Positions 14,017 to 31,825 of a DNA stretch of 33,235 nucleotides are shown here, piece after piece (within the stretch, counting starts at the first letter, position 1; each line of letters starts with the position of its first letter). The stretch covers positions 1 to 33,235 of IMG/VR virus record IMGVR_UViG_3300045967_000012; one strand, 5' to 3'. Below the pieces are notes generated by a model. The model saw only the letters and a list, made by a program, of their open reading frames with translations. It ran no database searches and had not been told where the DNA came from. Position numbers and translations under genes: made by a program. The DNA comes from a virus.

Positions 14017-14049
14017 GGGGGCTACTCATTGTGGGTAGCCCCCTCTTTT
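14017..14049 (+). terminator. Strong rho-independent terminator after head genes
   Basis: An 11-bp stem (GGGGGCTACTC with GGGTAGCCCCC, one wobble pair) has a 5-base loop ATTGT and is followed by TCTTTT. It begins eight bases past the stop of the last head gene. With no promoter visible downstream it probably lets only part of the polymerases through to the tail genes. Confidence 0.88.
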
Positions 14050-14061
14050 GGAGGGACTGTG

Positions 14062-14595
14062 TTGATTAACTTATCTAATGCCGTAAATATCAAGGGCTAT
14101 ATGTTTGAAAACGAGCTAGAGTGGTTAGCTCGAACTGCTAAGAAATCAAAGTGCATCGTAGAAATCGGCACATACTATGGAAGGAGTGCTAGAGCACTTG
14201 CAGACAACACAGACGGAAAAGTCTATTGTATCGACCCCTATCCAGGGGTTGTATTCTACCAGAATGGGGTCAGTGCTATCTCGTCTGGGTCATACGTTTA
14301 TCGTCAGGCTCAGAAGAATCTCGCTGAACACATATCATCTGGCAAGGTTCTTATTCATAGGGGAACCATAGAGGATTTCCCGCACTTCATTGACCCAGAC
14401 TTCATCTTTATTGATGGCGACCATTGTGAGGAAGCCGTCAGAAAAGATGTGGATTGGGCTAAAAGAATGGTATCGAAAGGTATCATCTCCGGCCATGACT
14501 ATGAAAACATAGGCTGGCCCTGTGTAAAACAAGTAGTCGATGAAAATTTCCCAACTATTGGGAGGGAAGGATTTATCTGGTGGACACAAAAGTAA
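14062..14595 (+). CDS. Class I SAM-dependent methyltransferase
   Basis: GGAGGG at 14050-14055 points to a start at TTG 14062 (six bases away) or GTG 14059. ATG 14101 is a weaker option. The SAM-binding loop is VEIGTYYGRSARAL (residues about 33-46) and the acidic end of the next strand is YCIDPYP. The motif DFIFIDGDHCEEAVRKDV matches the DGDHxYExVxxD pattern of the Methyltransf_24 class of small-molecule and sugar methyltransferases. GIISGHDY follows. The gene begins right after a terminator and ends overlapping a glycosyltransferase gene by 16 bases. The pair could make a methylated sugar for the virion or host envelope. The target is not visible from sequence. Confidence 0.85.
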   Translation: MINLSNAVNIKGYMFENELEWLARTAKKSKCIVEIGTYYGRSARALADNTDGKVYCIDPYPGVVFYQNGVSAISSGSYVYRQAQKNLAEHISSGKVLIHRGTIEDFPHFIDPDFIFIDGDHCEEAVRKDVDWAKRMVSKGIISGHDYENIGWPCVKQVVDENFPTIGREGFIWWTQK

Positions 14596-15416
14596 TGATT
14601 GCGGTGCCAACCTGTGAAATGGCGAAGCACTCAGCATTCTACGACTATTTCAATCTACTTCAAAAGCCCGAGGGAACTGTTGTAACTCTTTCACATGGTC
14701 AGTCTCCAGCATCGGGACGAAATACTTGCATTGAACAGGCATTGGAGCATGATTGCACACATATCCTGTTCATCGATGATGATATGGTGTTTCCACCGGA
14801 TGCACTTTATCGTCTACTGAAGCATGATGTAGATATCGTAAGTGGATACTATCTCATGCGTCAGTATCCTCATCAGGGACTTATCTTCGACCAAGCGGAA
14901 CCATCTGGTGAATGCCGCTGGTATGAAGTAGAAGATAACGAATCTGGTCTGCGTGAAGTTGTAGCCGCTGGACTAGGATTCGTTCTATTCAGAACCTCAG
15001 TTTTTGAGGCACTAGAAAAACCCTACGTTCGATTGGGTGAATTGGAATCTTGCAGAGATGGCTGGTGTGATGATATCGGCCTCTTTAAGCGCGTGCGCGA
15101 GGCAGGATTCAAAATTCATATGGATTTGGACCTTCGTATTGGTCACATTTCCAGTATGGTGGTTACACCAATGCATAAGGACGGTTTCTGGTATGTAGAA
15201 ATCGGAACCTTTACTCCTGAAACTGTAGCATTTCCAATGGTTCGGAAGCCTAAACCTGCTGCAAAGGAAATGACTATTGAAGATATCTCCAAGCGTTTAG
15301 GGGAGATTATTCAGAATTACGGTGGTATGGAGTCGAATATTCCTGTGGACTTGTTGAATCCACATGAATACTGGACTCTCAAACGACAACTGACCGCAAT
15401 GATGGCACCTAAATAA
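14580..15416 (+). CDS. GT-A fold glycosyltransferase-like protein
   Basis: GTG 14580 is preceded by GGGAAGG and overlaps the methyltransferase by 16 bases; ATG 14595 is an alternative. An N-terminal strand VMIAVPTCE is followed by SGRNTCIEQAL (residues 45-55). The nucleotide-sugar and metal motif ILFIDDDMVFPPDAL gives Asp 66-68. A later acidic WCDDIGLFKRVREAGFKIHM (162-181), with HIS near 189, matches the acceptor and second metal region of GT2-like enzymes. The C-terminal 70 residues are an extra helical part. It would transfer a sugar from a nucleotide donor. With the methyltransferase it forms a small modification cassette inside a structural operon, so the likely target is a virion protein or surface glycan. 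Confidence 0.82.
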   Translation: MDTKVMIAVPTCEMAKHSAFYDYFNLLQKPEGTVVTLSHGQSPASGRNTCIEQALEHDCTHILFIDDDMVFPPDALYRLLKHDVDIVSGYYLMRQYPHQGLIFDQAEPSGECRWYEVEDNESGLREVVAAGLGFVLFRTSVFEALEKPYVRLGELESCRDGWCDDIGLFKRVREAGFKIHMDLDLRIGHISSMVVTPMHKDGFWYVEIGTFTPETVAFPMVRKPKPAAKEMTIEDISKRLGEIIQNYGGMESNIPVDLLNPHEYWTLKRQLTAMMAPK

Positions 15417-22243: not shown

Positions 22244-22523
22244 GGGCGGAGGAGAAAATGAACATCATGTCGTCGCAGTTCGTATGCGATTGACTGGTGC
22301 TGGTAATCTCCAAATAGGACTTGAAGATTTAGACAATATTCAGGTCCAACCTCTAGTTCCTATCGCAATGCAAGCTACTACTCGCATTGAACCCAATCGT
22401 CTGGCTAATTTTCAATCTCAACGCATCAGATTTACTGGTGTAACTACTGAAATTAACGAAGTTTTTCATATTCGTAGAATCGTCATTTTCGCTAAAATGG
22501 TCGCTGTTGAGTATCCTGGCTAA
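22236..22523 (+). CDS. Small conserved-type tail gene product, 95 aa
   Basis: The GTG start at 22236 lies within the last codons of the fibre gene (8-base overlap). The sequence has a short basic and His-rich lead (MAKGGGENEHHVVAVRMRLT) and then three or four strands (GNLQIGLEDLDNIQVQPLVP; FQSQRIRFTGVTTEINEVFH; IRRIVIFAKMVAVEYPG). It is probably a small all-beta protein attached to the fibre or its hinge. I recognise the style from other phages but not a named family. The following gene starts by TAATG overlap. Confidence 0.7.
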   Translation: MAKGGGENEHHVVAVRMRLTGAGNLQIGLEDLDNIQVQPLVPIAMQATTRIEPNRLANFQSQRIRFTGVTTEINEVFHIRRIVIFAKMVAVEYPG

Positions 22524-23359
22524 TGGCTGGCATTACACCAGAAGTAATTGATAGATTACACGCGAATCTGCTCACTTCAGGTGTTCAGCAGCAAAATCAA
22601 GCTCTGTTCTTCGTAATTGACCAATTAATTAATGCCGTTAGGCAATCTTTAAGCAATGTTCAGGCTCTAACAGGTGGTGGTGGCGGAGGAGGGGGTGGAA
22701 TTTTAGCCCAATCCTTCCTTACTATGGACCCTGATGGTGCTACACTACCTAATTCTGCTCAATTCGTTACCCATAATCTAAATATTAATAGAAGTGGCAA
22801 TAAATTTACTGTAAATGCTCCAGTTCCTTATCCTCATGATGGTGAGGATGGTGAAATGGGAATGATTGGGCCTCCCGGAATACAGGGTATGCCCGGATTA
22901 ATGGGTCCAATAGGACCACCTGGAATGGATGCGTTTTGCGAGGGATGTTGTGAATCCCTTCCAACAGGTAATGGTCCTGCAAACTGGATTGGAATTCCAT
23001 ACGATGCAGCCGACTTTACAGGTGATGGAACAATCACTTGGGGCGTTGATTCTGCTGATGTAACTGACTATTCTTATAAGATAATTGATGGTAATACTGT
23101 TATTCTTAATGTTAGAATTGAAAATACAGATGTTAGTGGAGCAGGACAAATACTATTTGTTGCTATTCCACCAGAAATTGAACCTAAGAAATCATTAGCT
23201 GGTCCTGCATTAGCGTTTGATAATGGAACTGGCGCACCTGCATTCTTTTCTATCGATGTTGGCACTGGACAAATTCAATTCGTGAGGGTTGACCTTGCTA
23301 ATTGGGCAGCCTCAACTGATTCAACTTCCGTATACGCAGTCATAAGTTACCAGATTTAG
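22523..23359 (+). CDS. Collagen-like fibre protein, 278 aa
   Basis: Residues 1-48 are helical (trimerisation-like, NQALFFVIDQLINAVRQSLS), followed by nine glycines in a row (51-59). Residues 107-136 are ten G-X-Y triplets (GEDGEMGMIGPPGIQGMPG, continuing GLMGPIGPPGMD), a collagen triple-helix segment. A CEGCC cluster follows (139-143) and could cross-link three chains. The C-terminal part (about 150-278) is a beta domain with a GDGTITW strand and an FVAIPPEIEPKKS turn. Collagen-like shafts occur in phage fibres and are elongated, trimeric and flexible. The protein is likely a thin tail or head fibre. The short collagen stretch and CC cluster make it a compact example. Confidence 0.83.
   Translation: MAGITPEVIDRLHANLLTSGVQQQNQALFFVIDQLINAVRQSLSNVQALTGGGGGGGGGILAQSFLTMDPDGATLPNSAQFVTHNLNINRSGNKFTVNAPVPYPHDGEDGEMGMIGPPGIQGMPGLMGPIGPPGMDAFCEGCCESLPTGNGPANWIGIPYDAADFTGDGTITWGVDSADVTDYSYKIIDGNTVILNVRIENTDVSGAGQILFVAIPPEIEPKKSLAGPALAFDNGTGAPAFFSIDVGTGQIQFVRVDLANWAASTDSTSVYAVISYQI
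22673..22699 (+). repeat. Nine-glycine codon run
   Basis: GGN codons at 22673-22699 encode Gly 51-59 of the collagen-like fibre protein. The codons are mixed (GGT, GGC, GGA, GGG), so the run is not a pure simple repeat, but it holds a five-G tract that could slip. Confidence 0.7.
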
Positions 23360-23367
23360 GAGCATAA

Positions 23368-23694
23368 ATGCCTCGCATTGCAACACGCCTTCACGGTCCT
23401 GCACAAGTTAGCAATGCTGCCGCGACTAAGTTCACGGTATCTGCTAACGAAAAGGTCATTGTTCGGCATATTCACGTTCAGAATCCTAGTGCTTCTGCCG
23501 TGACTTTTACAGCCTCAATTGGTGCAGATGCGGCTGGAACTAGAATCTTCGATGCATTCAATATCGGAGCAGGACAGGTATTTGACCACTGGTGTTACTA
23601 TGTTCTGGAAGAAACTGAAATCTTTCAGGCATTCGCTGGAACCAATAACATTCTCGTTCTGACCATCGACGGGGATAGGGCGGTTCTTGGTTAA
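23368..23694 (+). CDS. Small beta-sandwich virion protein, 108 aa
   Basis: AGGAG lies six bases before the ATG. The strand-rich sequence includes KFTVSANEKVIVRHIHVQNP, then VTFTASIGADAAGTRIFDAF and a WCYYVLEETEIFQAFAG stretch ending ILVLTIDGDRAVLG. The pattern suggests a small jelly-roll or Ig-like virion protein, such as a fibre-associated or decoration protein. No family name can be given with certainty. Its last eight bases overlap the next gene. Confidence 0.7.
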   Translation: MPRIATRLHGPAQVSNAAATKFTVSANEKVIVRHIHVQNPSASAVTFTASIGADAAGTRIFDAFNIGAGQVFDHWCYYVLEETEIFQAFAGTNNILVLTIDGDRAVLG

Positions 23695-24064
23695 TATCCG
23701 TAATCTAAAGCAGGATGACCTTCCTGCACTAAGAGCAATACACGAGAGGGATTATCCAGACCTGGAATTTCCTCTCGAACGTGACCTTTACTCTGCTTTT
23801 GTAATCGAGAATGGTCGCGGGGAAATAGTTATGGGTGGCGGCGTAGAACCCATTGCCGAGGCACTACTAGTAACTGATAAAACTAAGAGTCGAATCCAAA
23901 TCGGTAAGGCTCTAGTTGAAGCTCAAAGATTCTGCATGTATACGTGCGGAAGATTTAAAATTAGAGAACTACACGCTTTTGTGACTGACGATGAATATGC
24001 GAAACACCTTATTCAGCACGGTTTTCAGAAGCGTGAGGAAGCTGTCCTTAGGATAAAACTCTAA
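23687..24064 (+). CDS. GNAT-family acetyltransferase-like protein
   Basis: The TTG start at 23687 lies in the end of the previous gene, six bases after AGGGCGG. The 125-residue product begins with a GNAT-like strand and helix (VNIRNLKQDDLPALRAIHER), then AFVIENGRGEIVMGGGVEPI. The C-terminal part HAFVTDDEYAKHLIQHGFQK plus REEAVLRIKL fits the final beta strand and helix of the fold, where a neighbour in front swings back (xxHGFxKxxE). The acetyl-CoA loop (Q/RxxGxG/A) is only weakly represented (IQIGKALVEAQR). Together with the methyltransferase and glycosyltransferase it is a third possible modifying enzyme among the structural genes. Its substrate is unknown. Confidence 0.7.
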   Translation: MVNIRNLKQDDLPALRAIHERDYPDLEFPLERDLYSAFVIENGRGEIVMGGGVEPIAEALLVTDKTKSRIQIGKALVEAQRFCMYTCGRFKIRELHAFVTDDEYAKHLIQHGFQKREEAVLRIKL

Positions 24065-25263
24065 TGGGTAAAAAGAAAACACCCGCCGCACCTAATCAGA
24101 CTGATATCTACAATAGGGCTGTAACTGGCTACAACCAGACACAACAGCCTTCCCAACTCGAAAATGAGATGGGACCAATCAGTCAGAATTTCATGGGTCG
24201 CTTTAATCAGTCTGCTGACCAAGCTAAGGCAGATTATGGCGATATCATGGGTGGCTATAAGAACTTCATGCAGGGGTTCAAGCCATCATACGAGAAAGTC
24301 AACTACCAACGTCCAGCAGAGCTAAACGAGGGATTTGGATATCTCCGCGAGGCAATGCCGGGATACCGGAATTTCGCTCAAACGGGTGGATATTCCGACC
24401 AAGATATTCAAGAATTACGTGCTCGTTCTACAAATCCAGTCCGTGCAGCGTATGGAAATACGATGATGGAATTGGATAGGGCTAGAGCACTAGGGGGTAG
24501 TGGTGGTGCCCCTAACTATATAGCCGCTGCTAGTAGGGCACAACGCGATATGCCCGGTCAACTAGCTGATGCTATGACTGGTATTAACGCCGAACTTGCA
24601 CGAGATATCCGAGAGGGTAAAAAGTTCGGTCTACAAGGAATTACTGGAACTGGTGCCACAATGGGTGGATTGGCTGGAGAGGATGCCTCGCGCTCATTAC
24701 AGGCATCACTCGCTAATCAAGGTGCTGACTTGCAGGCTCAACAAATGGGTATGCAAGGTAGACTTGGTGCCCTTAGTGGTATGCAGTCACTATATGGAAC
24801 TACTCCCGGAATGGCTAATATGTTCGGAAATCAGGCTCTTAACGCATATGGTCAGAGAGCAGGTCTAGAACAGGCTAGAAATCAGTTTGGTCTGGGCTAT
24901 CTTGATGCTCAAATGCGTAGTCAGCAGGCCGCTAACGAACAGAAAGGCCAACCGTGGTGGAAAACTGCACTTGGTGTGGCTGGAACTGTGGCCCCATATG
25001 CAGCTATGGCGCTATCTGATAAGAATGCCAAGAAAGACATTAAATATGTCGGTCGTGGCACTACTTCTAAGATGGCAAAATACCTCAAAGAACTGCCTCT
25101 CGCTACTTGGAAATACAAGGGTGATAATACCACTCATTTTGGGCCTATGGCTCAAGATTTCAAGAAGAAGTTCGGCATTGGAGATGGTAAAACTCTCCAT
25201 CTAGCCGATGTTATGGGCGTAGTCTTGGCTACCGCTCAGGAGGAAGCCAATGGCACTACCTAA
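24064..25263 (+). CDS. Internal/ejection-type protein with C-terminal S74-like chaperone domain
   Basis: The ATG is TAATG-coupled to the acetyltransferase gene. Residues 1-305 are Q/A/G/M-rich, mostly helical and repetitive (TIGGYKNFMQ-like, AARARALGG), as in internal virion proteins. A short hydrophobic segment, WKTALGVAGTVAPYAAMAL, is at about 299-317. The end (318-399) matches the Peptidase_S74 intramolecular chaperone: SDKNAKKDIKYVG with Ser318 and Asp319, then LPLATWKYKG, HFGPMAQDF and LADVMGVVLATAQE. S74 domains normally fold spikes and then cut themselves off at that Ser. Finding one on a helical, non-spike protein is unusual. Position next to two other large proteins suggests it is the first member of an ejection trio. 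Confidence 0.75.
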   Translation: MGKKKTPAAPNQTDIYNRAVTGYNQTQQPSQLENEMGPISQNFMGRFNQSADQAKADYGDIMGGYKNFMQGFKPSYEKVNYQRPAELNEGFGYLREAMPGYRNFAQTGGYSDQDIQELRARSTNPVRAAYGNTMMELDRARALGGSGGAPNYIAAASRAQRDMPGQLADAMTGINAELARDIREGKKFGLQGITGTGATMGGLAGEDASRSLQASLANQGADLQAQQMGMQGRLGALSGMQSLYGTTPGMANMFGNQALNAYGQRAGLEQARNQFGLGYLDAQMRSQQAANEQKGQPWWKTALGVAGTVAPYAAMALSDKNAKKDIKYVGRGTTSKMAKYLKELPLATWKYKGDNTTHFGPMAQDFKKKFGIGDGKTLHLADVMGVVLATAQEEANGTT

Positions 25264-26551
25264 CTTCTTCCAAAATGGGTTGGATATGTTGAGGATGAAG
25301 AACATCTTTCAGCCTTCTCCAACATATCCTACTCCTATGGGTGGGCCTACGCCCCCTCAACCAATGGAATTACCGAATATTCCTGTCCAATCAGGACTAC
25401 CAATGCAACAGCCTGAATTCGATGTAACTTCTCGAATGAAGGAACTATATCAGCCACAAACGGCTGCTACTGATAGATACGAACAGCTATTGGGCCAGTA
25501 TCCAGAATACGAAAAACCGGGTTTTTGGCGTAGTGCGGCTGCTGCATTGTCAGCATTCGGACCTGGTGGACATGATACGGGCATGAAAGTAGCTCAATGG
25601 AATAATTCTCGTAGAATGGAAGATTGGAAGAATCAAGTAACTCCTGCTTATCAGGCTGCAAACCTCGAAAGACAGGAAAATATCAATGCTCGTCAACTAG
25701 CCCATAATACTGTTCAAAATGAAGTAACTATGCGTCGAAATGAGGCAACTGCGAGGAATCAGGAAACACAGAATAAGATTCGCCAGCAGCGTGCAGACGC
25801 ATATGATTATAGGGTGCGTAATCCTAATGTGAAATTCGACTTTAATGGTCCTCGCGTTCGTATTCTGGACCCCGGAACTGGTCGAATCACTGAAACTAGT
25901 TGGGAATCCAAGGATTTCACTCCTCAGGAGAAACTTGAACTTGAGCAGAAAAATGCTCTTGAGAGGATTGAAAAAACTGGTGAACAAGCTAGAAAAACTG
26001 AAGAAACACGCCAAGAAGGTAGAACTGATATTGCTGAAACCCGAGGGTGGAAGCCATATACAGATGCCGAAGGCAAAGTATTCATGTATAATGAAATAAC
26101 TGGTGAAACTAGGGATAGGGCACAATCTCCGCAAGGAACTCCTACTCCTAGACCAAGTGGTGCAGCTAATAGACCAGAACTGGCTACACAAGCTAAGGTT
26201 CGTCACTATAATGCTGCAATAGAGTTCAAAAATAGGAATCCAGAACTAGGCAGATGGGTTACTCCTGGTGCTGGAAATACCTTCACTATTAAGCCTCCTA
26301 AAACAGGCACTTTTGGCAGTGGTCCGTCACCACAACAGTATGAAATGATTGTTAATGAGATTTATGGTCCAGACGGACCTCCACAAGAAGAAGCTACACC
26401 ATATCAGTCATCAGGACCGGGTGGTGGTAGGGGTGGTGGTTCTGGTCGTCAAGGTGGGCCTAGATTTACACCGAATAGTCCTCCACAAGCTCCACAAGGC
26501 TGGAAATATGTCCCGAAAAAGGGTGGTGGTTGGACTGCTGTTCCGGGCTAA
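25250..26551 (+). CDS. Internal/ejection-type protein, 433 aa
   Basis: CAGGAGG precedes the ATG, and the start overlaps the S74 gene by 14 bases. The N-terminal 60 residues are proline-rich and probably disordered. Residues about 85-260 form long charged helices (ERQENINARQLAHNTVQNEV; QEKLELEQKNALERIEKTGE), and there is a strand-like interlude with TDAEGKVFMYNEITGETRDR near 272-291. The C-terminal region (about 350-433) is rich in P and G with a GRGGGSGRQGG stretch, ending WKYVPKKGGGWTAVPG. It has the build of a T7 gp15-like internal core component. The call is by position and composition; no motif is diagnostic. Confidence 0.68.
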   Translation: MALPNFFQNGLDMLRMKNIFQPSPTYPTPMGGPTPPQPMELPNIPVQSGLPMQQPEFDVTSRMKELYQPQTAATDRYEQLLGQYPEYEKPGFWRSAAAALSAFGPGGHDTGMKVAQWNNSRRMEDWKNQVTPAYQAANLERQENINARQLAHNTVQNEVTMRRNEATARNQETQNKIRQQRADAYDYRVRNPNVKFDFNGPRVRILDPGTGRITETSWESKDFTPQEKLELEQKNALERIEKTGEQARKTEETRQEGRTDIAETRGWKPYTDAEGKVFMYNEITGETRDRAQSPQGTPTPRPSGAANRPELATQAKVRHYNAAIEFKNRNPELGRWVTPGAGNTFTIKPPKTGTFGSGPSPQQYEMIVNEIYGPDGPPQEEATPYQSSGPGGGRGGGSGRQGGPRFTPNSPPQAPQGWKYVPKKGGGWTAVPG

Positions 26552-26554
26552 ATC

Positions 26555-29500
26555 ATGTATCCACCAAAACAAAAACCGCCTGATTTGGATGCTTTTGGTC
26601 AACCTATTAAGTTTGACGAGAAGCCTCCAGATTTAGATGATTACGGTAATCCTAGCACTGAAACACCAGGATTCCTTAGTCAAGCGTGGGGAGCATTAAA
26701 CGAAGGTCTGTGGCAAGCCCCTTCTAGATGGGGTAAGCAATTTGCAGACTGGATGACTACCCCTGAATTGGATGATTCTAGATTTACTGCTATGGCTAAA
26801 GGTGCCATTGGCGGTGCTGGAGAAGGTCTAGGTCAATTAGCTACTGATTTAACCTCGCCACTCAATATTGGCGCTACCGTCGCTACGGGAGGGTCTAATC
26901 TTGCTCTTAGAGCAGGTATGCGACCTGAAGTAGTGAAGGGTATATCTAGTGCTGCCAAACTAATTAGCGGTGCATCAGAAGTTCATGGTGCAGGCGAAAT
27001 TGGCGGTTCCGCGATGGATTTCTTTGACCCAAATATTCCACTATCTGAGACTGCTGCTAGATTTGGTCGTGGAACTGTAGAATTAGCTGGTGGTGAATTA
27101 GGTCGTAGACACGTTCCTAATACACAAGGTCCAGTTCTTAGTAGGGTATGGCCTGACCCTGAAGCGAAAGCTAAAGCGTCAGTCCAAGACCTACTTCCTA
27201 AACTAAAAGATTCTATGGCTAAAGATGCTGAACGAGCATCACAGAAGGCCAAGAATCCTGCATCTACACCTGATTTAACTGGTTCACCTAATGGTCCTAC
27301 TAGGGATGAAACTATAGTTCTGCCTATTCCCTATGATGCTCAGCAAATCAAACAGTTGAAGCGTCAGGGTTATGATTTCATGGGGATTGACGCCAAAACA
27401 GGCGAAATGACCCTATCTAAGAAGGTGCCCATCGACCCCAATTTGAACCAAGGTCAGGGCGACCCAATGATGGCAGGTTCTACTCCGTATGGTCCTAAAG
27501 TTCGAGGATTTGCGGAACAAGTTCTACCTGATGAACAGCCAATATTGCCTTTTAATAGACCTGAGGAATTTACACCAGTTGGCCCCATGCCCGGTCAGCA
27601 GCCGGGACTACCGGATATTGACCTTCCGACGGGTCCAATGGACAGAGGTTTCCCGATTTCCGAGGGGGACGTTTTCGGGCCTCCTGGACCCCCTAGAGGG
27701 CCGTCTGGGGGTGTCCGGTTCGCTTTCATGGACCCCTTCAACTTTCCTGAGGGGCCGGAGCCATTTTATCATTTGGAAGATGGTTCTACGGTATCAGGTA
27801 GGGAATTAGCTAATAGAGGTATTGAAGCTCCACCTATTCCTGATGAACAATTGGGAATCGGTAGGCAGTTTCCCGGAATAGAGGCACAAGAACTAGGTAA
27901 TGTGGGACAGCCCATTGACTTGAATCAGGCTCTAGCTGATATGGAGCTTGATATGGCTAAACCTGTTGGTCGTGGTTCTACACAAGATTTTGCTCAACAA
28001 GTAGACCCCGGACTAGCAGGTCGTAATCTTGAACATCAACTACAGATGATTGAGGAAGGGCCAGTTATGCCCCAAACAGGGCGATATACTGAACCTACAC
28101 CTCCTCAAATGCCACATGAATTTGCACCTGATATACCTATGACTAGGGAACCAGTTGAAGGTGGTTACTCACCTCAATTTGGTGAACAAGTTATGGGTGA
28201 TGAGGGTCCACTATTCTCTCGTATTCCTAAGCCTCAAGATGAAATGAGAACTAATCAGAATCCACGTTGGGTAGAGGCTGAAAATGATGCCAGAATACTA
28301 GGAATTGATACTCGTAATTTCGACAATATTGATGACCTTGAATGGGCTATTACTCAAGAAACTGCACAACAGACTATGCGAACAGGTATGAATCCTTTGG
28401 CAGCAGCTAAAGGTGACATACCACTACAGGCTAAGATTGGTCAGGGTAAGGCCAAAATTGACGTTAATGTTCGTAAGGCAGCAGACGAACTAACTAAGGG
28501 GTATAATCAGCCACTACCCGCCGTCATGGTCCGCGAAGGCTTACAGAATGCCTTCGATGCTACCAAGAAAATGGGTAAGGCTGGTAAGACCTCTATTAGA
28601 GTAGAAAAAGATAGCCTTACCATTAGTGATAACGGTAAGGGAATGAGTCCTGAAGAACTTTATACTGTTTATACCAATCTCCATGAAAGTGGAAAGGTAA
28701 CTGACGAAGGTGCTACCGGCGGTAAGGGTGTAGGCAAGGCTACATTCATGCTTGGTGGTGAACATTTCAATGTAGAGACTGTAAAGGAGATTAACGGACA
28801 GAAAGTCCTTTCATCCTTCTATGGAACACCTGAAGAACTGTTGCAGGGCTTCGATGTTCATACTGAAGTGGTTGACGATAGTGTGCCTACTGGAACTACG
28901 TTTACTACTAAATTCAAGCCTGACCAAGAGGCATTCTATGGTCGAAATATGGTCGATGATATTCTTAAATACAGTCGAAATCTCGATATTACTCTGGATA
29001 CCGACCCATATGGGTATGGTCCTACAGCGAATAAATTCAAGAATACTAAGGTAGACGATAAGTCTATTCTCAAAACTGATGTAGATAGTGGGAATAGTGG
29101 CATAGAGTTGCTCGTTCCAAACGATGTGAAGTTTGGTGAGAATTCTTCTGTCAAAATGGTCTATCTGAACAATGGAATGTATCAGTTCAGTAATCGTATG
29201 TATCTGGATGAGGCCACTAAGGGTATTCCAGACCAGATTATTATCGACATGAACCCGAAGGTTCCTGAGGGTCATGATAACTATCCATTCCCTGTCCAGA
29301 GGGAGTCTATTAAGGAAGGTATTCAGAAGGAAATTGAACAGATTGTTAAGGACAAACTAATCAATCCATTCGCAAGCCAAAAGAAGATAGATTTGGCTAA
29401 ACTATGGGATTCTATGCCTGTCATGAAGAAAGACCCATTGACTGGCACGGAAGTAGTGTTGTTTGACCCCGGTAATAGGCTTACTCCTGAAGAACTAATG

Positions 29501-31825
29501 GAGTTCCAGACTAACCCTGTAATCGTTGGTCTGAACGACTCTATTAACCAGATGGTTAGTGACATTCTGGCTACTACCGAACGACCAAAATGGGCAGCTA
29601 AGGTTAAGAGGGTAGGTATCACTCTTGACCCGACCATTTATGGTATTCATATTCCTGACCCAAGGTCGGCTAAAACTGACCCCTCATCTGCAATTCTAAT
29701 CAATCCATTTGCACATACTGAAGTTCCCGGTGTTGTTGCTGCTGAAGGTAGGATGGACGTTACTCCTATGGATGCAGCACTTGATACTGTCGTAACAGCG
29801 ATGCACGAGGTTGCACACGTAGGGTCAGAGGACCCCAAGAATGTGCCGCCAATTAGTGATGCAGACCTTAATGACCCAAGAGTAGGAAGATACCTCCAGA
29901 CCTACTTAAAACAGGCCATTACACAAGGTGGTCTGGATATGGGTCATGGAATGCCATTTATCCATAGACTAGGAGAGATTTATGCCAAATTCGGGACACG
30001 GAATGGACTCGCTTGGGCCGACATCTTTCAGAAACAACTTACAGACCCAAAGTCTGGGGGATACAGTCCAGAAGTTCAGAGACTACTATCTATCTATACT
30101 GAATCAAGGGGGAGAGCAGCAGTTACAGAAGATATTCTCTCAGGAACGGGAGTTAAGTCAGCAAATACCCCAACCGGAACAGGAAATGTTCCTGGCGATG
30201 ATTCAGGACTTCGAGGAGGAGCTTCTAGGGTTAAGCTCCGACAACAACATGCCTCTCCCGAACGAGTAAAAGCTCTAAAGGAGAAAGGTTTTGAATTCTC
30301 TGATGTGGATAGTGAAGGAAACTTCATATTCACTAAAACTGGTGGTGGACAACCTCCCGGTGGTGGTCCAATATTAGAATCTGAGGTTCCACAACCTCCT
30401 AAGGGTAAAAAGGGACCAAAAGACCCCGAAAAAATTAGTCCATTGCGTGAGGCATTTGAACTTCCTCGCGCTCTAATGTCGGTAGACCCGCCGTTCATTA
30501 CGTCTGCTATGTTCAGGCAGGGACTACCACTAGTAGGAACCAGAGGATGGTTTAAGGCTGCATTCAATCAGGCCAAGGCATTTGGTAGTGACAACTACTA
30601 TAATGCTAGGATGGCAGAACTAGGACAAGACCCACTCTTTAGACCACAGGGTAAGAAACCCGGATGGGCTGAGAGAATGGGTGTTGAAATGACTGATATG
30701 GGCAGTAAATTAACTAAGCGCGAGGAGGCTCTACGGTCTAAAGTGGCCGAAAAGATTCCTCTCTATGGCAGGTATATTAAGGCGAGTAATAGAGCCTTCA
30801 CCCTATTTCTAAATGAACTACGTGTCCATACTCTTAATGACCTAGTTAAGGCAGGTAAGGCTAATGCTATAGCTGATGGTAATAAGATGCTGGACCCATT
30901 CCACAATGAGGTTCTAGCTAAAGAACTAGCTGAGTTTACTAACGTTGCTACTGGTCGTGGACCACTAAAGGTTCAAGTAGCCTATCCTACCTACAGTAAG
31001 GCTGAGGGATTTGGTGTAGGTGCTAAGGACTATGATTTCAAGAGGGCAGGTAAGGTATTAGCAGATGCCTTATTCAGTCCTAAACTACTGACATCAAGAA
31101 TGAAGATGATGAATCCTGCTACTTACATTATGAGTCAGCCACAAATCCGAAAGGAATACACTAAGGCTATGCTTCGGACTATCGGAGCATGGTGGACCTT
31201 CGCGTCAATAGCTGAAATGATGTTCGGAGCTGAAGTAAATAAAGACCCGAATAATGCTGACTATGGTAAGGTAAAGATAGGTGACACTAGATTCGATGCT
31301 GGTGGTGGCTTCCAACAGTGGTTAGTTCTAGGTTCTAGAATGAGGCCAGATTGGATGAAACTACCCATTGAGACTGAATCTGGTATTACTCCCCTAGACC
31401 TAATGACTAACCTCATGGGTCATGGTGGAGGTAAATATACCAGTTCAGGGTCAGGTGAATCCTATGACTTTGGAAAGGGCTATAAGCCCGAAACTAGAAA
31501 AGACATTATGATTAACTTCCTTGCGAATAAGCTACATCCAACCGCGAAGTTCTTCTGGGATGTGGCTGCCGCTAATGAACAGGTTCCGGTCTATGTGGGG
31601 GACAGGATACTACAGATGTTCCTGCCTATGATGGCGGGAGATTTGGCAGAACTAGCAGTTGAAGAACCAGAACTGATACCGCTAGTCCTACCATTCTCCG
31701 GTCTAGGGGGTGGAACTCAGACTTATACGGGACAAGCTAGTAAACCTTCCGTAACCCCATTCATCGAACAGGTTATTCCTGGGATGGAGGGGATTGGGGA
31801 GTGGGATATCCCGTATGGTCGCTAG
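26555..31825 (+). CDS. Giant polyvalent virion protein: GHKL ATPase, zincin, LPD-type C-terminus
   Basis: The 1756-residue product is the largest here and the third of the ejection set. Residues 1-30 repeat KPPDLDxxG; 60-190 are helical with hydrophobic G/A stretches. Residues about 645-800 form a GHKL ATP-binding domain. Its N box is EGLQNAFDA (Glu661, Asn665, Asp668), the G1 box DNGKGM (692-697), the G2 box GGKGVGKATF (722-731) and the G3 box GTTF (780-783). HEVAH (1084-1088) with HGMPFIHRLGEI (1131-1142) looks like a zincin metallopeptidase with a third ligand. Residues about 1310-1620 (QGLPLVGTRGWFKAAF to RFDAGGGFQQW) fit the C-terminal module of large polyvalent proteins. A short strand-turn unit appears twice, at 260-290 and 1233-1262. 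Such proteins enter the host with DNA; ATPase plus protease would act on host targets or the ejection channel. Substrates are unknown. Confidence 0.82.
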   Translation: MYPPKQKPPDLDAFGQPIKFDEKPPDLDDYGNPSTETPGFLSQAWGALNEGLWQAPSRWGKQFADWMTTPELDDSRFTAMAKGAIGGAGEGLGQLATDLTSPLNIGATVATGGSNLALRAGMRPEVVKGISSAAKLISGASEVHGAGEIGGSAMDFFDPNIPLSETAARFGRGTVELAGGELGRRHVPNTQGPVLSRVWPDPEAKAKASVQDLLPKLKDSMAKDAERASQKAKNPASTPDLTGSPNGPTRDETIVLPIPYDAQQIKQLKRQGYDFMGIDAKTGEMTLSKKVPIDPNLNQGQGDPMMAGSTPYGPKVRGFAEQVLPDEQPILPFNRPEEFTPVGPMPGQQPGLPDIDLPTGPMDRGFPISEGDVFGPPGPPRGPSGGVRFAFMDPFNFPEGPEPFYHLEDGSTVSGRELANRGIEAPPIPDEQLGIGRQFPGIEAQELGNVGQPIDLNQALADMELDMAKPVGRGSTQDFAQQVDPGLAGRNLEHQLQMIEEGPVMPQTGRYTEPTPPQMPHEFAPDIPMTREPVEGGYSPQFGEQVMGDEGPLFSRIPKPQDEMRTNQNPRWVEAENDARILGIDTRNFDNIDDLEWAITQETAQQTMRTGMNPLAAAKGDIPLQAKIGQGKAKIDVNVRKAADELTKGYNQPLPAVMVREGLQNAFDATKKMGKAGKTSIRVEKDSLTISDNGKGMSPEELYTVYTNLHESGKVTDEGATGGKGVGKATFMLGGEHFNVETVKEINGQKVLSSFYGTPEELLQGFDVHTEVVDDSVPTGTTFTTKFKPDQEAFYGRNMVDDILKYSRNLDITLDTDPYGYGPTANKFKNTKVDDKSILKTDVDSGNSGIELLVPNDVKFGENSSVKMVYLNNGMYQFSNRMYLDEATKGIPDQIIIDMNPKVPEGHDNYPFPVQRESIKEGIQKEIEQIVKDKLINPFASQKKIDLAKLWDSMPVMKKDPLTGTEVVLFDPGNRLTPEELMEFQTNPVIVGLNDSINQMVSDILATTERPKWAAKVKRVGITLDPTIYGIHIPDPRSAKTDPSSAILINPFAHTEVPGVVAAEGRMDVTPMDAALDTVVTAMHEVAHVGSEDPKNVPPISDADLNDPRVGRYLQTYLKQAITQGGLDMGHGMPFIHRLGEIYAKFGTRNGLAWADIFQKQLTDPKSGGYSPEVQRLLSIYTESRGRAAVTEDILSGTGVKSANTPTGTGNVPGDDSGLRGGASRVKLRQQHASPERVKALKEKGFEFSDVDSEGNFIFTKTGGGQPPGGGPILESEVPQPPKGKKGPKDPEKISPLREAFELPRALMSVDPPFITSAMFRQGLPLVGTRGWFKAAFNQAKAFGSDNYYNARMAELGQDPLFRPQGKKPGWAERMGVEMTDMGSKLTKREEALRSKVAEKIPLYGRYIKASNRAFTLFLNELRVHTLNDLVKAGKANAIADGNKMLDPFHNEVLAKELAEFTNVATGRGPLKVQVAYPTYSKAEGFGVGAKDYDFKRAGKVLADALFSPKLLTSRMKMMNPATYIMSQPQIRKEYTKAMLRTIGAWWTFASIAEMMFGAEVNKDPNNADYGKVKIGDTRFDAGGGFQQWLVLGSRMRPDWMKLPIETESGITPLDLMTNLMGHGGGKYTSSGSGESYDFGKGYKPETRKDIMINFLANKLHPTAKFFWDVAAANEQVPVYVGDRILQMFLPMMAGDLAELAVEEPELIPLVLPFSGLGGGTQTYTGQASKPSVTPFIEQVIPGMEGIGEWDIPYGR

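Follow-up and report, generated by a model that had tools for sequence, protein, structure and literature searches.

Gene content of the window

The window, by which we mean the whole 33,235-nucleotide stretch of viral DNA analysed here (IMG/VR record IMGVR_UViG_3300045967_000012), carries a gene whose product ends in a peptidase S74 domain. This gene, the parts of its product and the three neighbouring ORFs are listed in Table 1.

Table 1. Positions of the S74-bearing gene, its parts and its neighbours in the window
Feature	Position	Strand	Basis
125-aa ORF directly upstream of the S74 gene; GNAT/gp14-like gene position	23687..24064	+	Gene order
Gene of the S74-bearing protein	24064..25263	+	ORF list (399 aa, ATG); relative L006 84% identical over the full length
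Body, residues 1-296, Q/A/G-rich, predicted helical with low confidence	24064..24951	+	15-protein alignment; AlphaFold2 (AF2) pLDDT 41
Hydrophobic segment, residues 298-317	24955..25014	+	GRAVY 0.895, rank 1
Ser318 codon, predicted scissile and catalytic serine	25015..25017	+	Invariant in 90/90 distinct S74s
Lys323 codon, predicted dyad lysine (+5)	25030..25032	+	Invariant in 90/90 distinct S74s
Short S74 domain (residues 318-399) lacking the C-terminal coiled coil	25015..25260	+	Pfam, length comparison, fold match
433-aa ORF overlapping the S74 gene by 14 nt; putative second ejection-cassette gene	25250..26551	+	ORF list, gene order
1756-aa ORF with GHKL ATPase-like domain (residues 659-745); putative third ejection-cassette gene	26555..31825	+	ORF list, Pfam, PHROG, gene order

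Pfam analysis assigned residues 318-368 of the protein to Peptidase_S74 (PF13884, profile positions 1-51 of 58) with an E-value of 2.2e-8 and a score of 34.7 bits, above chance and above the gathering cut-off of 22. An earlier note, made from the letters of the sequence, had reported an S74 pattern at the C-terminus of this ORF, and the match confirmed it, including its start, since the first residue matched by the profile was Ser318, from which 82 aa run to the C-terminus. A model of residues 312-399 built with AlphaFold2 from 43 aligned S74s reached a pLDDT of 83. The only VIA-align entries for this model were the solved S74 chaperones 3gud, 7dc3, 3gw6 and 4uw8, with Z-scores of 5.4-5.8, and the best Foldseek match was 7dc3 (E 0.010, probability 1.00), none being found at E <=0.001; the fold match was graded as modest because Z was below 8.

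The body (residues 1-296) was common to S74-bearing and S74-less orthologs in the alignment of 15 proteins. The full-length model was poor (mean pLDDT 41), and at this confidence helices were predicted at residues 12-24, 31-71, 90-96, 98-107, 112-143, 150-196, 250-288 and 298-306, with no beta strand before residue 347. The description of the body in the earlier note as helical is weakly supported by this model, in which helices are the only elements predicted ahead of the S74 domain.

Three other genes of the window were annotated. A Gly-X-Y stretch resembling collagen occurs in the product of the ORF at 22523-23359 (PF01391, E=1.6e-4, a match that does not reach the curated cut-off), which is perhaps, from its sequence, a fibre or tail protein. 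A DNA methyltransferase-like gene (14029-14595; phrog_2675, E=2.2e-17) and a family-2 glycosyltransferase gene (14580-15416; PF00535, E=3.5e-6) sit in the interval that separates the capsid-like gene from the structural genes that come later.

Gene order and relation to ejection proteins

The S74 gene of the window is followed by two larger ORFs. The product of the second of these contains a GHKL ATPase domain (PF13589, E=1.6e-8), matches the RIIA-like family phrog_2979 (E=1.3e-10) and shows an HExxH motif by eye. The size of this third gene differs among relatives of the window: 700-713 aa without HExxH in L002, L011, L014 and L021, 1146 aa in L018, and at least 1079-1396 aa in L006, L017 and L019, where it runs off the contig. 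An ORF of 124-152 aa lies directly upstream of the S74-family gene in all 12 family loci examined. The identification of this small ORF as a GNAT found no support: the window copy gave no Pfam match, and among seven copies there were only two matches, both at chance level. No hhalign match was obtained between the small ORF and the GNAT group of phiGT1, and its best matches in the PDB were not significant. Two of these weak matches, 2d4o/2d4p, are entries of what we take to be a GNAT.

Searches with tblastn using the S74 protein of the window, its capsid-like ORF and its 708-aa ORF gave no match among 50,697 phage records, and the terminase gave distant matches only. Podovirus morphology was therefore inferred from the cassette, as no close phage relative was matched by tblastn.

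Pseudomonas phage PAE2, which was reached by a search with an S74 end, has an S74 gene placed immediately ahead of two large genes and after coat and tail genes like those of P22. The gene order of P22 is gp14-gp7-gp20-gp16. Residues 3-228 of PAE2_13 matched phrog_598 ('DNA ejection', E=5.7e-30), the family to which P22 gp7 belongs (E=6.5e-95). Using the PAE2 S74 protein as a tblastn query, 22 further records were found, RefSeq duplicates included, and 12 were opened. Leaving aside DSL-LC05, a homolog without S74, and ct7L0027, the S74 protein was followed by at least two larger genes in 10/10 records, with a small gene in between in Mae-JY35. The larger genes were annotated as internal virion or injection proteins in 3/10 records, and the small gene ahead of the S74 gene as an acyltransferase, an acetyltransferase or a match to RimL in 4/10. 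In ct7L0027 (MW202675; L028, 6179-9736) the S74 domain is found not at the end but at residue 277, within a 1185-aa protein annotated as 'internal virion protein D', and self-cleavage there, as read from the sequence, would split off an E1-like part.

Two more IMG/VR scans yielded 108 loci, comprising 80 of 127 phiGT1-group relatives (selected by body peptides) and 28 relatives of PAE2, and an HMM built from 14 S74s detected the domain in 99 of them (71/80 and 28/28, respectively). Two downstream ORFs were within reach at 75 loci; the nearer one was at least 250 aa long in 68 and the farther one in 67, and the gap was below 10 nt in 69. The phiGT1 protein itself (phiGT1_17) matched phrog_6121 (5e-121) and phrog_4287 'DNA ejection protein' (5.8e-11), and for the S74 protein of phiM5 (phiM5_27) a GenBank note reads 'detected in phage particle proteome'. 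Annotations of S74 or 'chaperone of endosialidase' already exist in GenBank for products of genes in this position, and some records label such genes tailspike or tail fibre.

The window protein matched phrog_6121 weakly (E=0.0011, over a match that includes the S74 part), and no match was obtained to the gp7 or DNA ejection PHROG families. Homology of the bodies among the window family, phiGT1, gp7 and phiM5-like groups found no support, all six pairs giving hhalign probabilities of 2.9% or less; those of the window family against the other three were 0.4-2.9%, and the shallow profiles make these values weak evidence of absence. As the body was not linked by profiles, the name ejection protein follows from position and architecture, and on this basis the window gene probably encodes the first protein of the ejection cassette (E1, the gp7/gp14 position).

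Distribution of S74 in the window family

The first IMG/VR scan for relatives of the window protein returned seven relatives and the second 14 loci, partly the same. S74 was carried by 10 of the 15 aligned family proteins and absent in five. Of the S74-less proteins, L016-L018 have a G/N/Y-rich tail in its place, L021 ends 25 aa from the PWW motif (the distance from PWW to Ser318 in the window is 21 aa), and L019 continues about 18 aa further, past the site. Two successive Ser-x4-Lys motifs, 19-34 aa apart, were found in six members (L002, L003, L004, L005, L007 and L011). Ser and Lys are kept in both, the first motif stands right after the hydrophobic segment, the second has Ser and not Asp after the serine, and the proteins end 78-84 aa from the second serine and 97-118 aa from the first. 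Judged by sequence, the tandem motifs may represent a duplication of the cleavage strand or two potential sites of cutting. L002 and L005 are different family members separated by about 46 kb on a single 62-kb contig (IMGVR_UViG_3300036851_000016), which may reflect duplication, joined genomes or misassembly.

Conservation of the catalytic residues

Ser and Lys at +5 were invariant across the 90 distinct S74s, which include the isolates and four window-family members and in which Lys was required by the search pattern in 14 isolate and family rows. Only four columns were invariant, namely Ser318, Lys323, Gly360 and Ala363; the Gln of the AQ motif was kept in 79/90, and most positions neighbouring Ser and Lys varied. 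In the census, Ser was located by SD or SS at the start of the HMM and Lys was not required, and no row failed. Near-identical S74s were collapsed to 80 or 74 distinct ones, depending on the key. For the S74s picked by body peptides alone, Ser was present in 71/71 and Lys in 70/71, the exception, L151, being a register slip; L151, whose frame is broken after the dyad, was excluded from the distinct set. Only L111-L190 are unbiased for the dyad because the search patterns of the other sets contained Lys, including one of the six used to scan for PAE2 relatives and those that fetched the cellular rows. The S318/K323 pair was also aligned in 14/14 proteins in a free alignment. Counterparts of the dyad are described as S911/K916 in endoNF and S587/K592 in MyRF (PMC8326128) and as S1264/K1269 in T5 pb1 (PMC4690869). 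The invariance of the dyad favours real cleavage.

The S74s of endoNF and T5 are described as taking an oxyanion arginine from the upstream stalk. An arginine at the corresponding position -14 was found in 0/74 ejection-type S74s and in 1/73 cellular ones; it was therefore rejected as a divider of cleaving from non-cleaving S74s, and its absence from the ejection type is uninformative, because cellular S74s lack it too. In two cellular S74s (L049 and L063) Cys replaces the catalytic Ser.

Length of the S74 domain

From the last Ser motif to the C-terminus, ejection-type S74s measured 63-84 aa over all sets together, with 63-76 aa in the distinct viral S74s (L151 excluded), 64-78 aa in the 10 isolates and 76-84 aa in the window family. 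The corresponding lengths were 94-125 aa in phage fibres (seven isolate-phage proteins) and 101-165 aa in cellular S74 proteins (n=73, two of the 75 loci having no locatable Ser motif). The extra C-terminal part of the fibre and cellular S74s is a heptad-like helix by eye, and by this length comparison the C-terminal coiled coil is missing from the window protein and from the ejection-type S74s examined. The structural study of MyRF describes this coiled coil as what chiefly drives trimerisation (PMC8326128), so that its absence weakens the claim that S74 trimerises. The suggestion of the earlier note that the domain may drive trimerisation was accordingly not supported, given the missing coil and a tail of only 82 aa from Ser318.

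Hydrophobic segment and natural ends of S74-less relatives

Residues 298-317 form the most hydrophobic 20-mer upstream of Ser318 and lie directly adjacent to it. In 65/74 distinct ejection-type proteins the most hydrophobic 20-mer ended at most 15 aa before the Ser, a count that stayed the same with the first 60 residues excluded, and in the body-selected subset this was the case in 54/59. In the cellular control, from which 10 of the 75 loci were left out, the maximum was near the Ser in 14/65 with the first 60 residues excluded; over whole sequences the count was 1/65, a value confounded by N-terminal signals. The maximum was near the Ser in 1/7 phage fibres and in only 6/10 isolates. In the window and in 7/8 family members it exactly adjoins the first S74 motif.

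A matching body without S74 was found in nine loci of the phiGT1 group, two of which run off the contig. All seven complete S74-less orthologs stop 11-21 aa past a GGLF-like motif, and in the S74-bearing relatives of the group, where the motif was found in 61/70, the Ser lies 5-21 aa past it. This coincidence of ends is no proof of cleavage, because gain or loss of a domain at the boundary gives the same picture. The C-termini of P22 gp7, Sf6 gp11 and APSE-2 P32, which are mutually related, are the same kind of hydrophobic, Gly-rich tail. Among the six gp7-position homologs opened, the tail of Sortsne is short and hydrophobic, and two, Vibrio 1.036 and DSL-LC05, have polar tails.

Origin of the ejection-type S74s

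In the phylogenetic tree (69 columns) the window-family S74s fell together with those of the cellular PMAQDF subtype, with support of 100/99.9; the cellular set is biased, having been fetched with patterns from the window family. The AU test (p=0.22, 69 columns) did not reject a joint group of the window family and the remaining ejection types, which leaves room for a single origin. By eye, S74 is preceded by a Cys-rich stretch, in many cases with CC..L.CC.G, and not by a beta-like one in 18 of the 75 cellular loci (L036, L039, L041, L042, L046, L048, L054, L056-L058, L062, L064, L069, L080-L082, L086 and L087), whose titles are mostly of Myxococcota or Deltaproteobacteria. As far as sequence can tell, this arrangement is another non-fibre use of S74.

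Proposed role of the S74 domain

We judge it somewhat probable, a little beyond an even chance, that the window encodes an E1-position protein whose S74 cap removes itself before Ser318 and thereby frees a hydrophobic tail. The last 82 residues would fold as a short S74 domain beside the hydrophobic segment 298-317, and on folding or assembly the Ser318-Lys323 dyad would cut before Ser318. The cut would remove the S74 module and leave a mature C-terminus that is a hydrophobic, membrane-prone tail, such as several S74-less relatives and P22 gp7 have from the start. We infer the cut itself, the entry of its product into the virion and the action of the tail on membranes, and for the last of these the description of T7 gp14 (PMC8954989) offers an analogy for E1 proteins. 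What the earlier note called 'timed release' is better described as the presumed shedding of a C-terminal cap that follows a hydrophobic segment. The distribution of the domain speaks against such a cap, as S74 is absent from a third of the aligned family (5/15), with three proteins bearing the G/N/Y-rich tail and L019 running past the site. Known S74s are described as being cut as trimers (PMC8326128, PMC4690869), and the absence of the coil that drives trimerisation counts against the presumed cut. A more far-reaching form, that a coil-less S74 was recruited, possibly twice independently, as a self-excising cap masking a membrane-active tail until assembly, is a tentative proposal to which we give rather less than an even chance.

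The alternative that fares best, although we regard it as unlikely, is that the S74 domain is never cut off and acts at the portal as a small module for docking or oligomerisation, its Ser and Lys being conserved for the sake of the fold. The missing coiled coil and stalk arginine, which speak against the classical trigger of cleavage, agree with this, as does the dispensability of the domain in the family, but Ser and Lys are retained throughout while most neighbouring positions vary, and the Ser of the phiGT1 group comes after the point at which relatives without S74 terminate. Less likely still appears a fibre-like role, in which the domain would first trimerise the helical protein and cleave afterwards: solved members of the family are described as trimers (PMC8326128, PMC4690869), and the approximately 12 copies of gp7 given per P22 virion (PMC4992974) are compatible with trimers, but the C-terminal coil is absent, the domain falls short of the lengths of both fibre and cellular S74s, and no beta stalk is predicted upstream in the low-confidence model. 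An external minor fibre or tail protein, placed in the cassette by coincidence, is improbable. In its favour are the collagen-like ORF a short way upstream, matches of PHROG fibre families to the S74 ends of relatives, and the names tailspike or tail fibre in some records; however, such names can arise from the S74 domain alone, the body of the PAE2 protein belongs to a DNA-ejection family, and the next two ORFs of most loci are large, as in P22. A functionless, decaying remnant of a fibre S74 gained by recombination would explain why the domain is short and patchy across the family, but it is very improbable given a dyad invariant over deep divergence and good fold confidence.

If the self-removing cap exists, S74 cleavage can do without the coiled coil to which trimerisation is attributed, or was rebuilt in its absence, and if the coil-less recruitment holds as well, the domain would be an auto-arming switch and not a trimerising fibre chaperone, cutting without the classical coiled coil. 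To our knowledge there is no settled account of how podoviruses keep membrane-inserting ejection proteins inert in the capsid. A self-cleaving cap beside a hydrophobic tail would be a concrete answer, testable in the isolates PAE2, phiGT1, the pCB2047 phages and phiM5. For annotation, an S74 domain at the E1 position need not mean a tail fibre or tailspike.

Comparison with known systems

The window protein shares PF13884, the Ser-x4-Lys motif and the predicted fold with the S74s of fibres and spikes (endoNF, T5 pb1 and the GA-1 neck appendage), and differs from them in having no C-terminal coiled coil, no predicted beta stalk and a hydrophobic segment directly before the Ser. The membrane-tethered transcription factors MYRF/MrfA likewise combine a non-fibre S74 with the dyad, and 7dc3 is the top Foldseek match of the window domain. 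In MYRF, a known non-fibre use of S74 (PMC3742443), the N-terminal part is described as departing and the S74 part as remaining membrane-bound, and, unlike the window protein, MYRF is described as keeping the coiled coil and a beta-helical stalk (PMC8326128). The use unlike classical fibres that the earlier note had proposed therefore holds in so far as the protein is probably an ejected, non-fibre protein with an intact dyad; it is neither unique nor the first use away from a spike, as MYRF and the S74 names in GenBank attest.

The P22 gp7 type (phrog_598) resembles the window protein in its position before two large genes and in its Gly-rich hydrophobic end, but P22 gp7 itself carries no S74 and no homology of its body to that of the window family was detected; the N-terminus of P22 gp7 is described as trimmed by host OpdA (PMC8402733). 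The phrog_6121/phiGT1_17 group likewise has an E1-position protein with a C-terminal S74, of a subtype different from that of the window family. Among the literature titles and abstract openings covered, none proposes self-cleavage of an S74-bearing ejection protein. Already known are S74 at this gene position, from GenBank annotation, and the non-fibre use of S74, from MYRF; what appears new, against the titles and abstract openings covered, is that a short S74, an invariant dyad, an adjacent hydrophobic tail and the ends of S74-less relatives are joined in one idea.
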